Origin: Adhaeribacter terrigena
Lineage (GTDB): Bacteria > Bacteroidota > Bacteroidia > Cytophagales > Hymenobacteraceae
Reading direction: 5' to 3'
Length of the DNA stretch: 64,000 bases
Assembly (NCBI RefSeq): GCF_016623615.1
Contig: NZ_JAEHFX010000002.1
Span: forward strand, 310,001 to 374,000
The notes beneath the pieces were generated by a model. It worked only from the letters and a program-made list of their open reading frames with translations, was not told the DNA's origin and searched no databases. The first letter of the stretch is position 1; every line of letters starts with the position of its first letter. Made by a program: the position numbers and the translations under genes. Positions 33,937 through 48,489 of this stretch are shown piece by piece.

Positions 33937-34272
33937 ATGGAAAACAGCTATTATAACCCCGCCGACTTACCGAAATTTGGCAGCATAACCGATCTGCAGC
34001 CGGAAATGGGCAAGAAATTCTTCAGTTATTACGCCGAAGTTTTTAAGGAAGGGGCCCTGACGGAGCGGGAAAAATCGCTGATCGCGCTGGCGGTGGCTCA
34101 CGCGGTGCAGTGCCCGTATTGCATCGATGCGTATACCACCGATTCGCTGGAAAAAGGCGCCGACGAAAACCAGATGATGGAAGCCATTCACGTAGCGGCG
34201 GCCATAAAAGGCGGGGCTACGCTGGTGCATGGTGTGCAGATGATGAATAAGATTAAAGAAGTGAGCATGTAA
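33937..34272 (+). CDS. Carboxymuconolactone decarboxylase-family protein of the arsenosugar cassette
   Basis: 111 residues, AhpD/CMD fold with the CxxC pair in AVQCPYCIDAY (Cys59, Cys62) and the helical tail IKGGATLVHGVQMMNKI. This subgroup is typically encoded next to ArsS in arsenosugar-associated loci and is described as peroxidase-like. Its TAA overlaps the ATG of arsS by one base, so translation is coupled. A redox or organoarsenical handling role is inferred from context. Confidence 0.88.
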   Translation: MENSYYNPADLPKFGSITDLQPEMGKKFFSYYAEVFKEGALTEREKSLIALAVAHAVQCPYCIDAYTTDSLEKGADENQMMEAIHVAAAIKGGATLVHGVQMMNKIKEVSM

Positions 34273-35327
34273 TGTTGAAAAAATCGTTACAAGCCCAGGC
34301 CTTGCCTTTGGCAACGCCCGAATTTCAGCTTACCGTTTTAAACCAGCGTTCGAATTCCGGAAAAGAATTTCCCTTTTTCGGCGAAAAGCTGGCGCAACAC
34401 GAACTTTTTCCGCTGAAACCAACCGGCATCCAGATTTTTCAGGTAAATGTGGGCAAAATGTGCAACCAGATTTGCCGCCATTGCCACGTAGATGCCGGCC
34501 CGGACCGCAAAGAGATCATGACGCGCGAAACCATGCTGGAATGCCTGGTTATTCTGGCCACCACCAGCATCGATACCGTAGATATTACCGGCGGCGCGCC
34601 CGAAATGAACCCGGATTTCCGGTGGTTTGTGGAAGAGATTTCGAAACTCGGTAAAAAGATCATGGTGCGCTGCAACCTCACCATTTTGCTGGCTAACCCG
34701 AAATATTACGACCTGCCGGAGTTTTTTAAAGCGCACAACGTACACGTGGTTTCGTCGCTGCCTTATTTTGCGGCTTCGCGTACGGATGCGCAGCGGGGCG
34801 AAGGTGTTTTTGAAAAGTCCATCAAGGCTTTGCAGATGCTGAACGCGGTGGGCTACGGACAGGAAAATTCGGGCTTGCAGCTGGATCTGGTATATAACCC
34901 GGCCGGCGCTTTTTTACCGGGGAGCCAAAGCAGTTTAGAAAAAGAATTCAAGCGCCGCCTGAAAACCGGTTACCATATCGAATTCAATAACCTGCTTGCC
35001 ATCACTAATTTACCCGTTAGCCGTTTCCTGGATTATTTGCTGGAAAGCAGAAATTACGAAGCGTACATGGAAAAACTGGTAAACGCTTTCAACCCGATAG
35101 CCGCCGCCAAGGTCATGTGCCGGAATACGATCTCGGTGGGTTGGGACGGTTTTTTATACGACTGCGATTTCAACCAGATGCTGGATTTGAAAGTAGCGGC
35201 CAAACATTCGCAACACATCCGCGATTTCGACCTGGAAAAACTCAGCACGCGCCATATTGTTTTGAACCAGCATTGCTACGGTTGCACAGCCGGCGCGGGC
35301 TCTAGCTGCGGGGGCGAAACGGTATAG
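34272..35327 (+). CDS. arsS: Arsenosugar biosynthesis radical SAM protein
   Basis: 351 residues. Radical SAM cluster motif CxxxCxxC as KMCNQICRHCH (Cys64, Cys68, Cys71), followed by AGPDRKEIMT and DITGGAPEMNPDF. The C-terminal Cys-rich tail (CRNTISVGWDGF, DCDFNQ, HCYGCTAGAGSSCGG) is typical of ArsS. The enzyme attaches a 5-deoxyadenosyl-derived moiety to a methylated arsenical in arsenosugar formation. It is coupled to the upstream CMD gene by a 1-base overlap and followed by a DUF2064 transferase. No ArsM methyltransferase is found in the window. Confidence 0.93.
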   Translation: MLKKSLQAQALPLATPEFQLTVLNQRSNSGKEFPFFGEKLAQHELFPLKPTGIQIFQVNVGKMCNQICRHCHVDAGPDRKEIMTRETMLECLVILATTSIDTVDITGGAPEMNPDFRWFVEEISKLGKKIMVRCNLTILLANPKYYDLPEFFKAHNVHVVSSLPYFAASRTDAQRGEGVFEKSIKALQMLNAVGYGQENSGLQLDLVYNPAGAFLPGSQSSLEKEFKRRLKTGYHIEFNNLLAITNLPVSRFLDYLLESRNYEAYMEKLVNAFNPIAAAKVMCRNTISVGWDGFLYDCDFNQMLDLKVAAKHSQHIRDFDLEKLSTRHIVLNQHCYGCTAGAGSSCGGETV

Positions 35328-35372: not shown

Positions 35373-35987
35373 ATGCAGGCAGAACAAGCGCTCATCATTT
35401 TCATCCGGAATCCGGAACTGGGCAAAGTGAAAACCCGGCTGGCCGCTACTGTGGGCAATGAAAACGCCTTGCGGATATACGAAGAATTGCTTCGGTTTAC
35501 GCAGGAAATAACCGAAAATCTGCCGGTAAGAAAAATGCTTTTTTACGCTGATAAAATTGCTGAAAATGATACCTGGCCCACCGCCGTTTTTGAGAAATTC
35601 CTTCAACCGCCCGGCGATTTGGGACAGAAAATGGAAGCTGCTTTCGGGCAGGCTTTTTCGGAAGGTGCCAAACAGGTAATGATCATTGGAAGTGACTGTT
35701 ACGAGCTTTCGGAAGGTATTATAAACGAGGCGTTTGAGCAGTTGGAGAAGCACGACGCGGTGATTGGCCCGGCGGCCGATGGCGGCTATTACCTGCTGGG
35801 TTTTTCGCGCCTAAATCCTGGTGTTTTTCAGCATAAGAACTGGAGTACCGCTTCGGTTTTTCAGGATACGGTGCAGGATCTGGAAAAGGAGAATTTCAGT
35901 TACTTCGTGCTACCGGTTTTAAACGACGTAGACGAAGAAAAAGACCTGGGCGAATTGCGGAAACTATTGTTTGTAAAAGCTGAATAA
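35373..35987 (+). CDS. DUF2064 / TIGR04282-type transferase
   Basis: 204 residues with a GT-A-like nucleotidyl/glycosyltransferase fold: IIFIRNPELGKVKTRLA, IGSDCYEL, VIGPAADGGYYLLGF and LNDVDEEKDL. This family (rSAM/selenodomain-associated transferase 1) often accompanies ArsS-like radical SAM genes. It starts 45 bp after arsS and overlaps the acetyltransferase gene by one base. It probably adds or activates the sugar part of an arsenosugar-like product, which is inferred from context. Confidence 0.88.
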   Translation: MQAEQALIIFIRNPELGKVKTRLAATVGNENALRIYEELLRFTQEITENLPVRKMLFYADKIAENDTWPTAVFEKFLQPPGDLGQKMEAAFGQAFSEGAKQVMIIGSDCYELSEGIINEAFEQLEKHDAVIGPAADGGYYLLGFSRLNPGVFQHKNWSTASVFQDTVQDLEKENFSYFVLPVLNDVDEEKDLGELRKLLFVKAE

Positions 35988-37283: not shown

Positions 37284-37320
37284 AAACCGGTAAAGCTTAA
37301 ACGTTTTACCGGTTTTTTTG
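37284..37320 (+). terminator. Rho-independent terminator
   Basis: AAACCGGTAAA (37284-37294) pairs perfectly with TTTACCGGTTT (37305-37315), followed by T-run. The right arm includes the stop codon of the convergent glycosyltransferase gene. Confidence 0.85.
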
Positions 37321-38652
37321 TGCGGAAAGTTCCGGGTTTTTCAGCCCAAAAGCATAGCGTTTTTCAAGCAAAATTGCCGTGAACAAACCGCCGTATTCCA
37401 GCGCCAGCAGCCACGGGTTTTCGGTGTGGGCATTGGTTTGGTAAGCTGCGTAGGAGAGTATGGCCAGGCCCGACCAAACAATAGCGTACCGCGAATTGGC
37501 CAGCACCGAAAGCGCAACCAGCGTGGTGAGGTACCAGGGGTGCACAATGGTTGCCAAAAGGAAATGCACGGTTAACGCCAGCAGAAAAAGCTTCGGGAGG
37601 TTAGAAAATGCCGGTTCTTTTTCGCGGAAGGCCAGGTATAAAACAGTGCCGAACGTGGCAAAAGAAAGCAGCGGCCCCAGGTTGGCGATCTGGTTATAGC
37701 CGTAAAAATACCAGCCAAATTCGCGCAGCACATAATACACACCCGCATTAAATTCAAACTTCTGAAAATACAGATTCAGGCTGTTGGAAAAATGAGCAAT
37801 GAGCTCCGGATTTACAAATGGGAGAAATAAAACCAGGCACGTAATTCCGGTAATTCCGCAGTATAATGACCAGTTTTTAAGGCCAAGCCGTTTGAAAAGA
37901 AATGGTAAAACAATGAGCGGTAAAAGCTTGGAGCAAACCGCGAACCCTAAAGCCACCGCTGAAAAAGGGTAGCGTTTCTGGTGGAAAAAGTAAAAAGCCA
38001 GTAAACTGAAAAAGATCATCAGCGCTTCGAAGTGCAGGTTGCCGGTCAGCTCCATGATTACGAGCGGATTGAGTGCGTACCAAAGCACTTTTCTGGCTTC
38101 CAGGCCTACCGTTTTTATAAGCTTTAGCAGCAGCCAGATTGTACCTGCCTCGGCTAGTAAAATAAAGCCGCGCATCAGAATAATTCCGAGCAGGTTATTT
38201 CCCGGATCTATGAAAGCGGGCAGGGCAAAAATGAACTGGCAAACCGGCGGGTAAACCGAAAAATAATGCGGCGAATTCAGGCTTTGGTAAAGCGCTGTGT
38301 TCAGGCCCGGAATGTTTTGAAAATTATTTCCGGCATAAAAATCGGGCAGGTGCAGAAACGGGTTTTGAACGGCGGAGATCAGGCGGCCATCCCAGAGAAA
38401 GCGGAAATAATCGTCGGAAAGCGCGGGGACGGAAAACAGCAGAAGCAGCCGGAAAACGAAGGCAAAGGTTAAGCCGGTTTTCAGGGAAATTTCGCTGCGC
38501 AGCAAGTAAAAATAAATGCTGAAAAGTAAACCAAATAAAGTCGTTAATGCCAGGAAATTTTCGCGCGGAACGCTGTAGCCCAAAGCCAGATACGCCAGCG
38601 CGGAAACCAGCAACAGCAAACTGAATAGCGGTTTTTGCCCGGAGATTTTCAT
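37306..38652 (-). CDS. Polytopic GT87/DUF2029-like glycosyltransferase
   Basis: 448 residues with about 10-12 membrane helices. After helix 2-3 it has FAFVFRLLLLFSVPALSDDYFRFLWDGR (the acidic DDYFRFLWDG loop is the likely catalytic site of GT-C enzymes), then SVYPPVCQF and PLVIMELTGNLHFEALM. It is a polyprenol-phosphate-dependent mannosyl/glucosyltransferase of the GT-C class by architecture. Its ATG overlaps the upstream CESA-like gene by 4 nt. Three dispersed motifs lie inside it and are translated. Confidence 0.85.
   Translation of the reverse strand: MKISGQKPLFSLLLLVSALAYLALGYSVPRENFLALTTLFGLLFSIYFYLLRSEISLKTGLTFAFVFRLLLLFSVPALSDDYFRFLWDGRLISAVQNPFLHLPDFYAGNNFQNIPGLNTALYQSLNSPHYFSVYPPVCQFIFALPAFIDPGNNLLGIILMRGFILLAEAGTIWLLLKLIKTVGLEARKVLWYALNPLVIMELTGNLHFEALMIFFSLLAFYFFHQKRYPFSAVALGFAVCSKLLPLIVLPFLFKRLGLKNWSLYCGITGITCLVLFLPFVNPELIAHFSNSLNLYFQKFEFNAGVYYVLREFGWYFYGYNQIANLGPLLSFATFGTVLYLAFREKEPAFSNLPKLFLLALTVHFLLATIVHPWYLTTLVALSVLANSRYAIVWSGLAILSYAAYQTNAHTENPWLLALEYGGLFTAILLEKRYAFGLKNPELSAQKNR
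37334..37363 (-). repeat. Dispersed motif inside the GT87-like gene, C-terminal codons
   Basis: Exact core AAAACGCTAT, GCTTTTGGGC and GAAAAACCC, read by the gene as EKRYAFGLKNP. Confidence 0.75.
37963..37992 (+). repeat. Dispersed motif inside the GT87-like gene
   Basis: Core AAAAGGGTAG (one mismatch), CGTTTCTGG and AAAAAGTA, opposite the coding strand, which reads YFFHQKRYPFS. Confidence 0.7.
38086..38115 (-). repeat. Dispersed motif inside the GT87-like gene
   Basis: Exact core AAAACGGTAG, then GCC and GAAAAGTG; the T-tract is lost. Read as KTVGLEARKV. Confidence 0.6.
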
Positions 38653-40127
38653 TTAACCAAACTGTGTTTCAGGGAATAGAAAAATACGAGGCTATAGCCC
38701 AGCGCCAGCATGAAATGAAAATACAGCATCCGGAAATCCTGCAGCCAGAAGGCAGCGAAAAGGGCCAGCCAGAAAAGCAGCGCGAGCATTCCTTCCACGA
38801 TAGTAAAACCGGAAGTTCCGGATAAAGTATACGCCGTTTTTTGCCAGCTTTTTTGCTCGTTTGTCAGGTTATATTTAGGCGTGCGGATGAACGGGGTTTT
38901 CCTTCCCAGGTACCCCTCCAAAACCGCAATGGCATTGTAAAAAGCCAAGCCCATGGAAACGGTTAAAAACAAAAAAAACTGCGGCAGAAAATTCCACCAT
39001 CGGGCATTGTTGTTCGTTTCGCGGTAAGCCAGCCAGTAAAAGAAAGCCAGCACCAGAAAACCGCTCAGAAAAACGGCCGAAACCCGGAAAAAAGCTGCGG
39101 AAAACGGTAGGGTTTTGCCGGCAAAAAGTAAGGCTACGCTGATCAGGGAAGCCAGAAAAACGCATAAGTAAACGCTGCTGTTGAGCAAATGGAACCAGGC
39201 GTGCAGTTTGGTTTCAAGGCCGGTTTTGGTGTTCCAGAGCAGGCTGCGGTGTTTTCTGGCGGTTTCGGCGGCGCCTTTGGTCCAGCGGTATTGCTGTTGT
39301 TTCAGGGCGGGCATGGCAGCGGGTAATTCGGCCGGCACCACTACATTTTGCAGGTAGCGGAACTGCCAGCCTTTTAACTGCGCACGGTAACTCAGGTCCA
39401 GGTCTTCGGTTAACGTATCAGCTTCCCAACCGCCCGCCGATGCGATGCAGGTTTTGCGCCAAACGCCGGCCGTGCCGTTAAAATTGATGAAATGTTTGCC
39501 AAAATTCCGGCCGCTTTGCTCTACGGTAAAATGCGCGTTCAGCCCGAAAGCCTGCAGTCTGGTGAGCATGGAATTTTGCGCGTTCAGGTGGCCCCAGCGG
39601 GTTTGCACCACGCCAATTTCAGGGGAAGTAAAAGCTGGAATGGTTTGCTGCAGAAAATCGGCTTCGGGTACAAAATCGGCATCGAAAATACAGATGAATT
39701 CTCCTGTAGCCTGTTGCAAACCATATTGCAAAGCGCCCGCCTTAAAACCGGTCCTTTCCGGCCGGCAAATGTGTACGATATTGATTCCCAGCTTTTGAAA
39801 GGCCGCGACTTTTTGGGCAATAATGCCTACCGTTTCGTCGGTAGAATCGTCGAGTACCTGGATCTGGAGTTTTTCCTTCGGGTAATCGAAAGCGCAAACG
39901 GCATCGAGCAGGCGTGCTACCACATAGCGTTCGTTGTAAACAGGAAGCTGAACCGTTACGTCGGGCCAGGTTTCAGGTGCCGGATAAACGGGTCTGGCTT
40001 GCTGCAGCGATCTTCGGAACAGGAACGTGAGGTGCAGTTGCATGAGGCTGTAGCAGAAAATAAACAGCAGACAGGCAAAATAGACCCCTAACAACAGCAC
40101 CAGAAAAACTTGCAAAGCCATGAGCAA
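38649..40127 (-). CDS. Cellulose synthase-like family 2 glycosyltransferase
   Basis: 492 residues. An N-terminal helix (about 5-28) precedes a processive GT2 domain with VTVQLPVYNER, LDDSTDET, FIFDADF split as FICIFDADFVPEAD, TLTEDLDLSYRA and the QQQYRW motif (QxxRW) of processive synthases. Four further helices follow (about 310-480). Most similar in layout to bacterial CESA/CelA-like beta-glycosyltransferases. It sits in a three-gene unit with a GT2 DPM-type enzyme upstream and a GT-C enzyme downstream, which points to lipid-linked or cell-surface glycan synthesis. One dispersed motif lies inside. Confidence 0.88.
   Translation of the reverse strand: MLMALQVFLVLLLGVYFACLLFIFCYSLMQLHLTFLFRRSLQQARPVYPAPETWPDVTVQLPVYNERYVVARLLDAVCAFDYPKEKLQIQVLDDSTDETVGIIAQKVAAFQKLGINIVHICRPERTGFKAGALQYGLQQATGEFICIFDADFVPEADFLQQTIPAFTSPEIGVVQTRWGHLNAQNSMLTRLQAFGLNAHFTVEQSGRNFGKHFINFNGTAGVWRKTCIASAGGWEADTLTEDLDLSYRAQLKGWQFRYLQNVVVPAELPAAMPALKQQQYRWTKGAAETARKHRSLLWNTKTGLETKLHAWFHLLNSSVYLCVFLASLISVALLFAGKTLPFSAAFFRVSAVFLSGFLVLAFFYWLAYRETNNNARWWNFLPQFFLFLTVSMGLAFYNAIAVLEGYLGRKTPFIRTPKYNLTNEQKSWQKTAYTLSGTSGFTIVEGMLALLFWLALFAAFWLQDFRMLYFHFMLALGYSLVFFYSLKHSLVK
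39101..39130 (+). repeat. Dispersed motif inside the CESA-like gene, near consensus
   Basis: Exact core AAAACGGTAG, GGTTTTGCCGGC and AAAAAGTA, opposite the coding strand, which reads LFAGKTLPFS in a loop/helix region. Confidence 0.8.
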
Positions 40128-40158
40128 ATATCGGAAGAAAAAGGCAGGTTGGGGGAAG

Positions 40159-40188
40159 AAAACGCTATGGTTTAAGGCACAAAAACTC
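40159..40188 (+). repeat. Dispersed 30-bp motif copy between two glycosyltransferase genes
   Basis: Exact core AAAACGCTAT, GGTTTAAGGC and AAAAACTC. Its last two bases touch the stop codon of the GT2 gene. Confidence 0.82.
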
Positions 40189-40879
40189 AGCGGTAGCGGA
40201 AAAGCGTGTATAGAATTTTATATCCGGCTAAAACTGCCCCTTTTATCGTGCCCGAAATTTTAGATCTGCCAATGCGGCGGCGGTAGGGAACAGCAACTTC
40301 GGTGCAGCGGAGTTTGTGTTTGGCAGCTTTCAATTGCATTTCTACCGTCCAGCCGTAGGTTTTGTCCTGCATGTTCAGTTTCTCCAGGCTGTCGTAACGA
40401 ATAGCGCGGAAGGGACCCAGATCGGTGAATTTTACCTTATAAAAGCGTTTCAGGAGTCTGGTTGCCAGCCAGTTGCCAAATACTTGCGGAATGGTCATCG
40501 AGCCTTTTTCCGCTTCGCCCAGCGTCCGGGAGCCGATCACCAGATCCGCATCGTTGTTCAGGATCGGGTAAAGCAGTTCGGGCATTTTCTCCGGATAATC
40601 GGAATAATCACCATCCAGAAAAATCACGATATTCGGTTTTTCTTCCGCCGGTTTTGTTCGCAGGTAAGCCAGGCCTTCCAGACAGGCATTGCCGTAACCG
40701 CGTTCCGGCTGAAATAGAACGGTAGCGCCGTTTTCTTTTGCCACTTTTGCCGTATCGTCGGAAGAATTATTATCTACTACAATTATTTCCGAAACCAGGC
40801 CGCCGGGGATATCGCGCAGTACGGGGCCGATAGAACTGGCTTCGTTGTAAGCGGGAATAATGACGGCGATCCTGGGCAT
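40187..40879 (-). CDS. DPM-type family 2 glycosyltransferase
   Basis: 230 residues, GT-A fold: VIIPAYNEASSIGPVL, IIVVDNNSSDDT, ERGYGNACLEGL, FLDGDYSDYP and GPFRAIR. Resembles polyprenyl-phosphate glucosyl/mannosyltransferases that make the lipid-linked donor used by GT-C enzymes. No membrane helix is present. It is the first gene of a minus-strand set of three glycosyltransferases and would supply donor substrate for the last one. Sugar identity is unknown. Confidence 0.9.
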   Translation of the reverse strand: MPRIAVIIPAYNEASSIGPVLRDIPGGLVSEIIVVDNNSSDDTAKVAKENGATVLFQPERGYGNACLEGLAYLRTKPAEEKPNIVIFLDGDYSDYPEKMPELLYPILNNDADLVIGSRTLGEAEKGSMTIPQVFGNWLATRLLKRFYKVKFTDLGPFRAIRYDSLEKLNMQDKTYGWTVEMQLKAAKHKLRCTEVAVPYRRRIGRSKISGTIKGAVLAGYKILYTLFRYR

Positions 40880-43068: not shown

Positions 43069-43330
43069 GAATGAGGAAATGATTGAATAATTGAATAATA
43101 GAATGAGAGAGTAGTTTTGATTTTGGTATCTGAATATTGGTATCTGGATTTTTAAATAATTTAAAGCTCAAAACAATTTCGTTAGTCGCGTTCTTTATGC
43201 AATTGTAGTTTCCGAAATCTTTTGGCTGTTTGAATTTGCTACAAAAGATTTCGGGTTGTTCATTCACTTATTCCATAACCCAATAACTCACTCATTCTCT
43301 CATTCAAACATTCACTAATTCAATCATTCC
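43069..43330. repeat. Inverted heptad arrays with an internal 13-bp hairpin
   Basis: The left array (43069-43111) and right array (43261-43330) contain GAATGAGA/TTGAATAA-like heptads in opposite orientation. Between them CCGAAATCTTTTG (43212-43224) pairs perfectly with CAAAAGATTTCGG (43242-43254). The right array includes the TGA of the Fe-S protein gene. Same type as the element at 33.7 kb, but the centres differ, so only the ends are shared. Confidence 0.65.
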
Positions 43331-44649
43331 AAAATTCTAAGATTCTCGGCGTGGAAGAATGGGGTAGGGGCGTGGCGGTTTTCGGGCTTTTTGTTTTCGA
43401 GTTTCAGGACGCCGCGCGGGCAAACGGTGGCGCACATACCGCAGCCCACGCAGGCCGCCCGGATAATGGGTTTTCCCTGTTGGGCATATTGTTTTACGTC
43501 GATGCCCATTTCGCAATACGTGGAACAATTGCCGCAGGAAATGCATTGGCCGCCGTTGGTAGTGATCCGGAAGCGGGAAAAATGTTTCTGGAGTAAACCT
43601 AAATACGCGGCCATCGGGCAACCAAAGCGACACCAGACCCGCGAACCGAAGATCGGGTAGAAGCCTACGCCAATTACGCCCGAAAAAATAATGCCGATAA
43701 AGAAACCATAACTGCGCGCAAAGCCCCCGGAAAGCGAACCCAGCAAACCACCTTGTAAATACGAATTCAGCCAAAGCAACGCGGTAGTTACAATTACAAA
43801 ACCTAAAACCGGGTACACAATAGCCACTTCCAGTTGCCAGGCTTTTCGACTTTTATCCGATAAATGCCGGAACGGATCGCCGGCGGTTTCGGCCAGGGCG
43901 CCGCAGCCGCAAACCCAGCTGCAATACCAGCGTTTGCCCCAGAAATATGTAAGGACCGGCGTAACCACAAACGAAAGCAAAACGCTCCAGAAAATCATGA
44001 AAACCGGTAATCCGCCGGGGTGGGCCAGTATGTGGTGAATGGTATCGGGGAAAAGATATTCGAATTTAAGCGGCCAGAAATAAGAGAAATAAAATTCCGG
44101 CTGGTTGAAAAACACCAGGATATGCGGGAGCAAAAACGCGAAAACCAGCTGGAAGAAAATATTAACCGATGTCCGGAGTAAATGATGCTTGCTGTGGCGG
44201 TATTTCAGCAATGCACGGATTCCCATGATGATCACGGCCAGCGTGTAAAATGCCCCGTACAAAAACCACTGATCCGCTTTTTTATTTCGGAGCAACTGGC
44301 TCAAACCATCGAATTCCCGGATCAGAAATTCCAGCGTGTGGGGAAACCAGTAAAGAACCACGTAAAAACCGGTGAGTACCACGCCCAATAACCAGGCTGC
44401 AATTCCCCGGCTGGCCAGGTTTCTGAACCAGGTTTGGTGTTGCAGGTTGGCGGCATTGGTTTTTTTGAAACGCTTGAAAATAAGCCACAAACCGCTGCTG
44501 ATGAATAGGAAAAAGCCAGCTTCGTTTAAAAACGGTATCCTTTCCGGAGTAAAAACTCCGATGCCAAGCAGCCCCAGACTAAGTAAAAGCAGCAAGCTCG
44601 CCGGCCTGACGCTTGGTTTGGATACCTGGGTTTTTGGTTCGAAAAACAT
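43324..44649 (-). CDS. FixG/NapH/YccM-like polytopic 4Fe-4S protein
   Basis: 441 residues from ATG 44649 (an upstream start at 44748 would overlap the previous gene). Six or more membrane helices; loop cysteines WYCSWVCGCGALAE and VWCRFGCPMAAY of the NapH/FixG fold; then two ferredoxin clusters, CISCGNCSTYCEMG and CVGCGMCATVCPRG. It moves electrons across or along the membrane. It is the last gene of a unit with a two-helix protein (7-bp gap) and an FAD oxidoreductase. The natural partner is unknown; nosZ-linked electron transfer is a possibility only. Confidence 0.88.
   Translation of the reverse strand: MFFEPKTQVSKPSVRPASLLLLLSLGLLGIGVFTPERIPFLNEAGFFLFISSGLWLIFKRFKKTNAANLQHQTWFRNLASRGIAAWLLGVVLTGFYVVLYWFPHTLEFLIREFDGLSQLLRNKKADQWFLYGAFYTLAVIIMGIRALLKYRHSKHHLLRTSVNIFFQLVFAFLLPHILVFFNQPEFYFSYFWPLKFEYLFPDTIHHILAHPGGLPVFMIFWSVLLSFVVTPVLTYFWGKRWYCSWVCGCGALAETAGDPFRHLSDKSRKAWQLEVAIVYPVLGFVIVTTALLWLNSYLQGGLLGSLSGGFARSYGFFIGIIFSGVIGVGFYPIFGSRVWCRFGCPMAAYLGLLQKHFSRFRITTNGGQCISCGNCSTYCEMGIDVKQYAQQGKPIIRAACVGCGMCATVCPRGVLKLENKKPENRHAPTPFFHAENLRILE
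44529..44558 (+). repeat. Dispersed motif inside the FixG-like gene
   Basis: Exact core AAAACGGTAT, CCTTTCCGG and AAAAACTC, opposite the coding strand, which reads VFTPERIPFL. Confidence 0.75.
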
Positions 44650-44657
44650 ACCGTTTT
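44628..44657 (-). repeat. Dispersed motif overlapping the FixG-like start codon
   Basis: Exact core AAAACGGTAT, GTTTTTCG and AAAAACCC. The ATG at 44649 is built from core bases, so the first codons read MFFEPKT. Confidence 0.7.
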
Positions 44658-44875
44658 TAATGATGATGATCGTCGTGGGGTTTGGCGTAGATATTCCGGA
44701 ACAAGCCGAAAACGTAAAGCGCGAGCCAGCAAGGGTAAAGCCATTCAAAATTCGGGATTTCTTTTTTCACCAGCACCAAAACCAGTTGGGCCAAAGCCGT
44801 CATGATCATTCCGGTAACGGCAATTACCTGGAAGGTGTGCATGTGGCGCGGGCTGTAAATTTTTCTCAGATCCAT
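44657..44875 (-). CDS. Small two-helix membrane protein with His-rich tail
   Basis: 72 residues from ATG 44875 (MDLRKIYSPRHMHTF). Two membrane helices (about 13-33 and 44-62) and a C-terminal HDDHHH that may bind metal. It lies 27 bp after the FAD oxidoreductase and 7 bp before the FixG-like gene, so it is likely a subunit or assembly factor of the same complex. No family is recognised. Confidence 0.65.
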   Translation of the reverse strand: MDLRKIYSPRHMHTFQVIAVTGMIMTALAQLVLVLVKKEIPNFEWLYPCWLALYVFGLFRNIYAKPHDDHHH

Positions 44876-44902
44876 AACGTTGTTTTTCCGGCAGGGCAAT
44901 TT

Positions 44903-46216
44903 TTAAAACCAGCGGAATTTCTTTTTTCGTTCCGGCAATTCCACTTCCGGATGCTGGGTTTTAAAGGCCTGCAAGATATCGTTTTCGTAGCGCCGCTGAA
45001 ACTCCGGATCAAAATTCGCCTCTTTTAAATGCAATAACCCGGAAGCCAGCGGACGTTCTTCTTTTATCCATTCTTCGCAGACTTCCTGCCGTAACCTGAT
45101 GCCCAACGCTACCAGTCCGGTAATGCTTCTGGCTTTATCGTTTACGTAATTCACTCTTAAACTGGCGGTGCCCTCCGGGTTTTGCCAGAAAAAGCTGGTT
45201 TCGTTTTTTGCCGGGTCCGGAACAACACGGCCGTAGGTCTGCAATTCCAGATCGAAGAATTTAGCCGAATTAAAGGGAATACCGCGTTCGTAAGGAATTT
45301 TCCGGCCGCAGATATTATGCGCGGCAATTTCACCCTGCATCCGGCCGGTGTACCAAAGCTGCTCTACTATGCCACCCTTAAAAGCAAGTTCGGTGCAATC
45401 GCCGGCGGCATACACATCCGGCTGGCTGGTTTCCAGGTATTCGTTTACCAAAATGCCCTGGTTGGTTTTGATACTGCAGGTTTTGGCCAGTTCCGTATTC
45501 GGGATTACGCCGGTGGCAATGCCGGTAAAGGTGCAGGGTATGCGTTCATTTTTATCTGTGATGGCCGCGCAAACGTTTCCGTTTTCGTCGCTTTCCAGTT
45601 CTTTTAAAGTGGTTTTCAGCCTGATTTCGATACCGTTTTTAGCAGCGCGTTTTTCAATCAGTCTGGCTTCTTCCGGCGGTAAATTCCGGCCCCAGTAATG
45701 CGCATCCCGAACCAGCATCGTAACTTTTATGCCGCGTGCGTGCAGCATTTCGGCCAGTTCTATGCCAATCAATCCGCCGCCTACAAGTACGGCCGCGCTG
45801 CAGTTTTCAGTAGCGGTTTCAATGTTTTGAAGGTCCTGCAGATGGTAAAAACCGTGCACGCCTTTTAAATTTTGCCCCGGCCAGTTCCGGAAATTAGTTT
45901 GGGAACCGGTAGCGAGCAATACTTTATCGTAGCTTATTTTTTCGCCGGAAGCCAGCATGGCAGTTTTCCGTTTAAAATCGATAGCGTTTACCCAGTCGTG
46001 TTTTAAAGCAATGTTATTTTCGGCCCAGAACCAGTCTTCGTAAGGTTTAATATCTGCGTAACGCATTTGTCCCAGGTATAAATACATCAGGGCGGTGCGG
46101 GCATAAAAATGCGCATTTTCGCCGGAAACGATCGTAACCTGGTACCCGGAAAGTTTGCGGATGGTAAGCGCTGCCGTAACGCCGGCAATGCCGTTGCCGA
46201 TAATTAAAATGTGCAT
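44903..46216 (-). CDS. NAD(P)/FAD-dependent oxidoreductase (NirB/rubredoxin reductase-like)
   Basis: 437 residues. Two Rossmann folds: FAD site ILIIGNGIAGVTAALTIR and NAD(P) site AVLVGGGLIGIELAEML. The FAD-contact DVYAAGDCTEL is present. The fold resembles the NAD(P)H-nitrite reductase/assimilatory reductase flavin domain, but no sirohaem or Fe-S part is attached. It heads the three-gene unit with the two-helix and FixG-like proteins, and so probably feeds NAD(P)H electrons into the membrane. A motif copy lies inside at 45960. Confidence 0.88.
   Translation of the reverse strand: MHILIIGNGIAGVTAALTIRKLSGYQVTIVSGENAHFYARTALMYLYLGQMRYADIKPYEDWFWAENNIALKHDWVNAIDFKRKTAMLASGEKISYDKVLLATGSQTNFRNWPGQNLKGVHGFYHLQDLQNIETATENCSAAVLVGGGLIGIELAEMLHARGIKVTMLVRDAHYWGRNLPPEEARLIEKRAAKNGIEIRLKTTLKELESDENGNVCAAITDKNERIPCTFTGIATGVIPNTELAKTCSIKTNQGILVNEYLETSQPDVYAAGDCTELAFKGGIVEQLWYTGRMQGEIAAHNICGRKIPYERGIPFNSAKFFDLELQTYGRVVPDPAKNETSFFWQNPEGTASLRVNYVNDKARSITGLVALGIRLRQEVCEEWIKEERPLASGLLHLKEANFDPEFQRRYENDILQAFKTQHPEVELPERKKKFRWF
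45960..45989 (-). repeat. Dispersed motif inside the FAD oxidoreductase gene, one base shorter
   Basis: Core AAACGCTAT (5' A lost), CGATTTT and GGAAAACTGC. Read as NAIDFKRKTA. Confidence 0.5.
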
Positions 46217-46351: not shown

Positions 46352-46735
46352 TTACTCTTTCGTTTGGGCTACCGTATTATTTTTCATAGTCAGTCCGGCA
46401 TACGTATAAGGTTGTTCTTTACGGTATTCTACGAAAGCACTGTATTGTTTGGTATTCAGGGTGTTGAAGATGCTGGCCGCATACTGCTCTTCTATCTGAT
46501 CGAGCCGTAGATCGAGGTAGCGGTTATCTTGTTCCCGAAGTTGAGCCAAAGCAGCAATTTTTTCCAGACGTTCCAGGTTCAGTTTTTTGATCTTCAGATA
46601 TTCGCCTTCGTTCAGATTCATCCGGCCGGCCATTTCCCGGGTTTCTTTCTCAGCCTGGCTTTGCAAGTCTTGGGCAGCAAGAGGAGTAACACTAATAAGG
46701 GCAAAACCGAGTAATAAAGTAAGCATTGTTTTCAT
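46352..46735 (-). CDS. Small exported helical protein, paralogue A
   Basis: 127 residues with a signal peptide (about 1-21, ending PLAAQ). The mature part is helical: LNEGEYLKIKKLNLERLEKI, LRLDQIEEQY, NTLNTKQYSAFVEYRK. It shares the LNE-x-E/D-Y-x-K and the L-x(2)-KQ-x(3)-Y positions with the genes at 47422 and 48124. The layout recalls Spy/CpxP-like periplasmic proteins but I see no firm LTxxQ pair. Function unknown. It has its own terminator. Confidence 0.75.
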   Translation of the reverse strand: MKTMLTLLLGFALISVTPLAAQDLQSQAEKETREMAGRMNLNEGEYLKIKKLNLERLEKIAALAQLREQDNRYLDLRLDQIEEQYAASIFNTLNTKQYSAFVEYRKEQPYTYAGLTMKNNTVAQTKE

Positions 46736-47421: not shown

Positions 47422-47793
47422 CTACTTTAATGCTTCAGCCGAGAAGGCAGTGTAATTACTCTTGTTTTCTTTGTAGGCAGCGTAAGCTTCCATTTGTTTG
47501 GAATTCAGGATGGAACGTAACTGGTTTTCATAATCCGCCTGCAATTCGGTGATTTTCATTTCCCGCACGGTGGCATTATTGGAATACATGGAGTTAATTT
47601 CCGCAGCCTTGGCCATGTGGTCGTAGTTGACCATTCTTAATTTGATGTAATCCATTTCATTCAAACCCAATTGGGCCGACATGCTGCGGGTTACCGTGGT
47701 AACGCGGGCATCCAGGTTTCCGCCAGGCTGGGCGAAACAGATACCGGTTGAGCACAAAAATGTAAATGCCAGGAAGATTGGTAGATTTTTCAT
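47422..47793 (-). CDS. Small exported helical protein, paralogue B
   Basis: 123 residues with a signal peptide (about 1-22, ending ICFAQ). The mature helical part has LGLNEMDYIKLRMVNYDHM, VREMKITELQADYENQL and ILNSKQMEAYAAYKEN. It aligns along its length with paralogues A and C. It ends at the bidirectional terminator. The 330-base AT-rich gap that separates it from paralogue C holds no ORF. Function unknown. Confidence 0.75.
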   Translation of the reverse strand: MKNLPIFLAFTFLCSTGICFAQPGGNLDARVTTVTRSMSAQLGLNEMDYIKLRMVNYDHMAKAAEINSMYSNNATVREMKITELQADYENQLRSILNSKQMEAYAAYKENKSNYTAFSAEALK

Positions 47794-48123: not shown

Positions 48124-48489
48124 TTATTCGCTAACAGCAATAATGTTCAGGTTCGTTTTATAGCTGTTATACAGCGTGGCATAGGTTTCAAATTGTTTAG
48201 CGGTTAAAAGATTCTGGATCCGGTGGGTGTAAGCAGATTCTTCTTCCATGATCTTTTTGGTCATCATGTCGCGGTCGTTGCTGTACATATCCAGGATCTG
48301 AGCCACGCGAACAAGTTTTTCGGCAGTATACTTTTTCACCTGAATGTATTCCATTTCATTCAGTTCAACCTGGTTAGCCATGCGGCGGGCAATATCGGAG
48401 GCCTGGCTGTTTATATCATTAATATTGTTAGAAGCGCTGGCAGTTAAAACGGCAAAAGCAAAGAAGGCGGAAGTAATAAATTTTTTCAT
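48124..48489 (-). CDS. Small exported helical protein, paralogue C
   Basis: 121 residues with a signal peptide (about 1-19, ending TASAS). The mature part has VELNEMEYIQVKKYTAEKLVRVAQ (shown split: LNEMEYIQVKKY, AEKLVRVAQ), MMTKKIMEEESAYTHRIQNLL and TAKQFETYATLYN. It is most similar to paralogue B (LNEMxYI, MYSN, TKKI/MKIT). Its 5' flank (48490-48983) is AT-rich with one dispersed motif. Function unknown. Confidence 0.75.
   Translation of the reverse strand: MKKFITSAFFAFAVLTASASNNINDINSQASDIARRMANQVELNEMEYIQVKKYTAEKLVRVAQILDMYSNDRDMMTKKIMEEESAYTHRIQNLLTAKQFETYATLYNSYKTNLNIIAVSE

Follow-up and report, generated by a model that had tools for sequence, protein, structure and literature searches.

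What does a NapH-like membrane protein do with the electrons that a neighboring flavoprotein would supply? The question is raised by a locus of Adhaeribacter terrigena (NCBI RefSeq assembly GCF_016623615.1, contig NZ_JAEHFX010000002.1, positions 310,001 to 374,000), the 64,000 nucleotides of which, analyzed as a whole, are referred to here as the window. Three genes on its minus strand, spaced by 27 and 7 bp, encode a NAD(P)H/FAD oxidoreductase of the NirB/rubredoxin-reductase type (FAD; 44903..46216, 437 amino acids), a two-helix protein of 72 amino acids with a His-rich tail (MID; 44657..44875), and a NapH-like iron-sulfur membrane protein (FES; 43324..44649, 441 amino acids from its ATG). 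NapH-like proteins of known role are mostly respiratory. The original prediction, which gave the genes and their spacing correctly, took the three as one unit carrying electrons from NAD(P)H through the membrane and proposed to look for its co-occurrence with nosZ or cytochrome oxidases. It missed the strongest partners of FES, which are three glycosyltransferases (37306-40879) and a TIGR04282 gene in the same window. Our bioinformatics analyses suggest that FAD and FES probably constitute a NAD(P)H-fed, apparently heme-free membrane reductase, dedicated to a pathway that makes a lipid-linked glycoconjugate.

FAD and FES form a conserved pair

The FES loci were drawn from three overlapping sets, comprising 51 loci from an order sample of 194 genomes, 80 named loci, and 20 loci from a phylum sample of 124 genomes (4 of them also in the order sample), which gives 151 in total. 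The named set holds the best 80 of 584 confirmed FES matches and is skewed to close relatives; as to overlap between sets, one contig holds both L093 and L035, and the contigs of L181 and L182 match those of L135 and L145 in length. Across the order sample, FES and FAD each occur in 51 genomes, and 50 of the 52 genomes holding either gene hold both (Fisher p 3e-44; the Fisher p-values over the 194 genomes ignore relatedness). Relatedness was controlled by permutation within the seven families that hold both states, represented by 84 genomes with a family label, and here the presence of FAD agreed with that of FES in 82/84 genomes (permuted mean 50.5, permuted maximum 66). The mirror-tree correlation between FES and FAD was 0.71, a value reached by 0/200 permutations; such correlations also reflect shared ancestry. 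FAD is found directly upstream of FES on the same strand in 37/51 order, 76/80 named, and 15/20 phylum loci, as counted by tblastn, which also served to count partner presence in loci; L084, a C-terminal FES fragment, was excluded from the adjacency count. The taxa of the named loci, from the best 80 of 584 matches, include Bacteroidota, Ignavibacteria, Dadabacteria, Methylacidiphilum, Sulfidibacter, Planctomycetota, Gemmatimonadetes, Calditrichaceae, and a Myxococcales metagenome-assembled genome (MAG), among others, with the nearest matches in Pontibacter, Rufibacter, Solirubrum, and Hymenobacter.

The two functions also occur in a single chain. In L165, L166, and L186, the FES domain forms a fusion with a flavin domain that is YpdA/thioredoxin-reductase-like, and the protein of L167 resembles these fusions in length and N terminus. 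The FES part of the L166 fusion is 34% identical to the window FES, whereas the flavin part of this fusion shows hardly any similarity to the window FAD; that FES shares a chain with a second, distinct flavin partner is good evidence that a flavin feeds FES. Judged from sequence, FAD and FES are a real, conserved, and old pair and adjoin each other in most of the relatives examined, and to this extent the idea of electron transfer from NAD(P)H to the membrane is supported; MID was found only in Hymenobacteraceae among the loci listed.

Three membrane glycosyltransferases are inherited with FES

The three transferase genes (40879-37306) are on the same strand as FES and lie 2.4 kb beyond it, with three other genes between. 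The nearest encodes an AglJ-like GT2 enzyme (40187..40879), a probable polyprenyl-phosphate sugar transferase, scoring 135 bits against the AglJ equivalog TIGR04182 (cut-off 325). It is followed by a cellulose-synthase-like membrane GT2 (38649..40127; Glyco_tranf_2_3, 4.6e-27) and by a GT87-like membrane glycosyltransferase (37306..38652), a putative user of polyprenol-phosphate-linked sugar that gives weak matches to TIGR03459 and MptB; the window protein has no Pfam match, and its homologue in L049 matches GT87. The assignment of all three draws also on their phyletic profiles. Within the order sample, the AglJ-like gene was found in 51 genomes, GT2 in 52, and GT87 in 50, and their overlap with FES amounts to 50/52, 48/55, and 49/52, respectively, of the genomes with either gene; all five genes are present in 47/194 genomes and any of the five in 56. 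Within the seven mixed families, agreement with FES reached 83/84 genomes for the AglJ-like gene, 79/84 for GT2, and 84/84 for GT87, as well as 77/84 for TIGR04282 and 65/84 for ArsS, an arsenosugar radical SAM enzyme, with permuted maxima of 63-66 overall. In the phylum sample, FES and the AglJ-like gene each occur in 27 genomes, 26 of them in common, so that 26/28 genomes with either hold both, and the only genome with AglJ alone (G247) has a fused FES directly before AglJ and GT87. Mirror-tree correlations were 0.60 for FES-AglJ and 0.92 for FES-GT2, both reached by 0/200 permutations.

Shared operons, some of them with arsenosugar genes, support the link among the five genes. Clustering of neighboring genes returned, as recurrent FES neighbors, the AglJ-like, cellulose-synthase-like GT2, and GT87-like genes, DUF547, rhodanese, TIGR04282, and ArsS; since neighbor genes were called as the longest non-overlapping open reading frames (ORFs), their spacing and lengths are approximations, and other ORFs shadow some of the FES, FAD, and MID genes. 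Five loci (L048, L049, L052, L053, and L055) read rhodanese, DUF547, FAD, FES, GT2, AglJ-like, a further gene, and GT87, and the genes from FAD through the AglJ-like gene are spaced by -8 to +9 bp. L168, L170, and L174 carry FAD-FES-AglJ-GT2-GT87, as do L171 and L172 with a small ORF added after FES.

Further genes were observed around these loci. Rhodanese (e.g. L049:5918-6544) is present in 27/151 FES loci and DUF547 (e.g. L049:6596-7393) in 31/151, and GH113 glycoside hydrolases recur beside the unit in 11/151 (e.g. L049:16242-17276 and L174:11187-12206). One genome, G115 (L035 and L036), carries FES, FAD, ArsS, and the AglJ-like gene twice, with a set on contig C19 and another on C34, which looks like a block duplication.

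The flavoprotein and the iron-sulfur membrane protein

FAD matches Pyr_redox_2 (4.6e-54), and its top-scoring relatives in the PDB are a NirB-family protein, NADH oxidases or CoA-disulfide-type enzymes, and rubredoxin and ferredoxin reductases. It scores 158 bits against the NirB equivalog, under the cut-off of 578, and lies far under every equivalog cut-off among the family matches listed. No invariant CxxC was found in an alignment of 20 sequences, so FAD is not a disulfide reductase of the ordinary type. In the same alignment R170, just after the second Rossmann strand, is invariant; we take this to be the site where NADPH-specific enzymes such as glutathione reductase bear an arginine, and treat it as a lead only.

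FES combines a membrane domain (Fer4_5, 5.3e-9) with a double 4Fe-4S domain at the C terminus (Fer4_7, 4.1e-8), which is the architecture of NapH/MauN. That family (TIGR02163) is also its best named match, at 61.8 bits under a cut-off of 213.05, and the FES homologue of L143 reaches 68.3 bits. An alternative, longer in-frame start (TTG at 44748) would overlap MID. The alignment of homologues used 115 of 127 clustered ORFs, leaving aside those outside 400-640 amino acids, two duplicates, and a second window copy. All 13 cysteines of the window FES are invariant or nearly so in the 115 homologues (C243, C247, C249; C340, C344; C369, C372, C375, C379; C400, C403, C406, C410), as is W192-P193-L194 in a predicted periplasmic loop, and the (near-)invariant residues include no histidine, because of which a heme b site is unlikely. 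Across the family, the inner loops have mean net charges of +2.4, +3.9, +2.6, and +6.2, with -0.3 for the short N terminus, and the outer loops between +0.1 and -1.7; these charges follow the positive-inside rule and would place every Cys motif in the cytosol. In many relatives the segment between helices 1 and 2, which would be periplasmic, is longer. A structural model from 24 sequences was poor (predicted local distance difference test score, pLDDT, 55.4), whereas that from 115 sequences was usable (pLDDT 75.5, predicted template modeling score 0.79) and compatible with eight membrane helices. Searches with the latter returned a best Foldseek E-value of 2.2 and a best VIA-align Z of 4.0, and in view of these weak results we make no claim about the fold either way; PDB sequence searches with FES gave relatives for the ferredoxin part only. 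Separately from the full gene, genomes G012 and G045 also contain C-terminal fragments of FES (L084:4513-4788 and L070:2340-2609), which are possibly decayed copies.

MID and the genes upstream of FAD

MID, which ends in ...KPHDDHHH, has no match in Pfam or NCBIfam. Among the FES loci listed, 22 have a homologous stretch immediately in front of FES, two of them (L035 and L093) from the same genome, each with a His-rich tail of 3-11 histidines, and on this ground MID is taken to be a real gene. The named loci with MID, within the best 80 of 584 matches, belong to Hymenobacter (one of them a Hymenobacter MAG), Rufibacter, and Solirubrum. Among the loci listed, MID was thus seen only in Hymenobacter and close kin, and the seven Pontibacter loci have FAD-FES gaps of 2 to 15 bp, which makes it an accessory of some Hymenobacteraceae. 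A conserved three-gene unit, as the original prediction had it, was rejected since MID was found only in Hymenobacteraceae among the loci listed; in that lineage, it perhaps binds metal.

Upstream of FAD, the window holds a row of three paralogous small exported-looking proteins of 121-127 amino acids (46352-46735, 47422-47793, and 48124-48489), a relative of which also occurs near FES in L034.

A proposed role in glycoconjugate synthesis

Together, these data can be read as one pathway. We infer that cytosolic FAD would oxidize NAD(P)H and pass electrons to the cytosol-facing iron-sulfur clusters of FES, which in turn would hand them to an acceptor within the inner membrane or beyond it. The TIGR04282, AglJ-like, cellulose-synthase-like GT2, and GT87-like enzymes together would build a lipid-linked or cell-surface glycoconjugate, in a pathway that has genes and loci in common with arsenosugar synthesis and also occurs without ArsS. 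By analogy with archaeal lipid carriers, FAD-FES might reduce the polyprenyl-phosphate carrier used or made by the AglJ-like enzyme, or the sugar bound to it, a tentative and rather unlikely proposal; no geranylgeranyl reductase was identified among the scanned neighbors.

Several observations weigh against a dedicated role in such a pathway. FAD is not adjacent to FES in 14/51 order, 4/80 named, and 5/20 phylum loci, and two phylum loci (L177 and L178) have no FAD within the FES stretch searched; for the 14 order loci, FAD is found elsewhere in the genome, except in G155, where the contig ends just upstream of FES. The AglJ-like gene lies within the FES stretch in only 22/51, 23/80, and 9/20 loci of the order, named (best 80 of 584), and phylum sets. 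Moreover, G286 of the phylum sample has FES and no AglJ-like match, G002 lacks FES and FAD and carries all three transferases, GT2 is alone of the five genes in G029, G059, and G151, G033 lacks GT2 and GT87, G017 lacks GT87, G193 lacks GT2, and G044 has FAD only; several of these pattern-breaking genomes are fragmented assemblies. Finally, neither Foldseek nor VIA-align found a structural relative for the membrane part of FES. Over the 151 loci, the AglJ-like gene, TIGR04282, and ArsS were within the stretch in 54, 32, and 19, respectively, and these low counts indicate that the partners mostly lie elsewhere or beyond the stretch.

Five or six genes of unknown function thereby gain one testable pathway, and if FAD-FES did reduce the lipid carrier or its bound sugar, it would be the redox step of a widespread, unnamed glycoconjugate route whose TIGR04282 step is common to arsenosugar synthesis. 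The results point to an apparently undescribed pathway in which the building of sugars requires electrons at the membrane, and no description of the FAD-FES-transferase gene combination was found in the open-licence literature. By phyletic profiles that nearly coincide and by shared operons, a NapH-like protein is here tied to three membrane glycosyltransferases in about one-quarter of the sampled order genomes (51/194), and to arsenosugar genes in several phyla.

Arsenic, metal, and respiratory alternatives

The alternative that survives best, although improbable, is an arsenic-specific unit in which FAD-FES would reduce a pentavalent arsenical (e.g. dimethylarsinate) at the membrane for ArsS or re-reduce an oxo-arsenosugar. 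The window itself encodes ArsS (34272..35327, plus strand; TIGR04167, 446 bits) next to the CofC-like TIGR04282 transferase (35373..35987, plus strand; 210 bits, above the cut-off of 134). The accessible part of PMC12159101 cites a characterization of ArsS, and that of PMC12608789 holds nothing on bacterial arsenosugar genes. In the order sample, ArsS is present in 36/51 FES genomes versus 7/143 without FES, and its agreement with FES within families exceeds every permutation. FAD-FES also lies in or beside arsenosugar clusters in L104, L135, L143, L145, L149, L150, L152, and L157, and likewise in L165, L166, L170, and L174. For example, L165 and L166 carry a fused FES, a TIGR04283-TIGR04282 fusion, DUF547, a TIGR04169 peroxidase-like gene, ArsS, and an AglJ-like gene (labeled by family scan in L166 and by BLAST in L165), whereas L174 has a same-strand run of ArsS, TIGR04282, PNP, an arsenosugar-type ArsM, DUF547, and TIGR04283 that is separated from FAD-FES-AglJ-GT2-GT87 by a single GH113 gene on the opposite strand. 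On the other hand, 15/51 FES genomes have no ArsS match, which weakens an arsenic-only role, 7 ArsS genomes lack FES, and FES agrees far better with the AglJ-like and GT87 genes than with ArsS; ArsS is often linked to the module and not required by it. TIGR04282 occurs in 50/51 FES genomes, 7/7 ArsS-only genomes, and 2/136 with neither, and so looks common to the FES and arsenosugar pathways. Because it is present in 14/15 of the FES genomes without ArsS, our results suggest that TIGR04282, now labeled an arsenosugar enzyme, has a wider role.

A CcoG-like metal reductase, with the His-tailed MID handing over or storing the metal, is very improbable. CcoG belongs to the same broad class as FES and is reported as a cupric reductase in the available part of PMC8456105, and the MID homologues retain their His-rich tails, but a function resting on MID, which was found only in Hymenobacteraceae among the loci listed, would explain at most the MID-bearing lineage. 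The genome furthermore has a CcoG of its own (L001:1228-2628; TIGR02745, 419 bits), beside a ccoP-like gene, near ccoN, and apart from FES. FES is only 24% identical to it over 250 aligned columns (E 3e-9), and the CcoG model TIGR02745 is absent from the top 25 of the 61 family matches of FES, on which grounds FES was rejected as a CcoG.

Least probable of the three is an NAD(P)H:quinone oxidoreductase, respiratory or general in function, for which the proximity of sugar genes would be incidental: FES resembles NapH, a quinol-linked protein according to the accessible part of PMC8238504, a nosZ gene (Sec-type; TIGR04246, 901 bits) occupies positions 1-1443 of the window on the minus strand and runs past its left edge, and nosZ is modestly commoner with FES over the 194 genomes (16/51 with FES versus 16/143 without; odds ratio 3.6, p 0.002), but ccoN (cbb3) shows no association there (p 0.17), the agreement of nosZ and ccoN with FES within families is that of chance (41/84 and 40/84 genomes), which weakens a respiratory role, and the near-identical profiles with the three transferases would be left unexplained, so that the co-occurrence first proposed for these genes was rejected.

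Comparison with known systems

The proposed reductase and its associated enzymes share features with several known systems and differ from each. FAD has the fold, and likely the NAD(P)H-to-iron-sulfur role, of the NirB N-terminal domain and of rubredoxin and ferredoxin reductases, whereas it has a dedicated membrane partner and scores under the equivalog cut-offs. CcoG/RdxA/FixG, like FES, are Fer4_5 iron-sulfur membrane proteins of distant similarity, from which FES is set apart by the missing TIGR02745 match among its best 25 of 61 and by the separate, true CcoG of the genome. With NapH/MauN and NosR/PceC-type proteins, FES has in common several membrane helices and a double 4Fe-4S domain that is preceded by Cys motifs in the cytosol; it differs in scoring under the cut-off, in its eight predicted helices, in its NirB-type flavoprotein partner, and in the lack of a within-family link to nosZ, and the extracytosolic flavin mononucleotide-binding domain of the NosR/PceC type had no Pfam match in the window FES, in that of L049, or in the three fused proteins. 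The accessible part of a 2021 survey (PMC8238504) ties NapH-like systems to flavinylation and respiration and states that the reactions of most remain unknown. The arsenosugar cluster (ArsM, ArsS, TIGR04282, TIGR04283, and TIGR04169) has TIGR04282 and some loci in common with the FES unit, the core of which is, on the other hand, FAD, FES, and the three transferases, with ArsS missing in 15/51 FES genomes. The last comparison is with AglJ and archaeal dolichol-phosphate glycosylation, where an AglJ-like enzyme likewise stands beside an electron source, although the present system is bacterial and its enzyme scores below the AglJ equivalog cut-off. According to the available part of PMC10821996, archaeal dolichol phosphate is saturated by geranylgeranyl reductases, one of which uses ferredoxin for the lipid substrate; if FAD-FES were to act on the polyprenyl-phosphate carrier or its sugar, it would be a bacterial, membrane-embedded counterpart of this ferredoxin-fed saturation.

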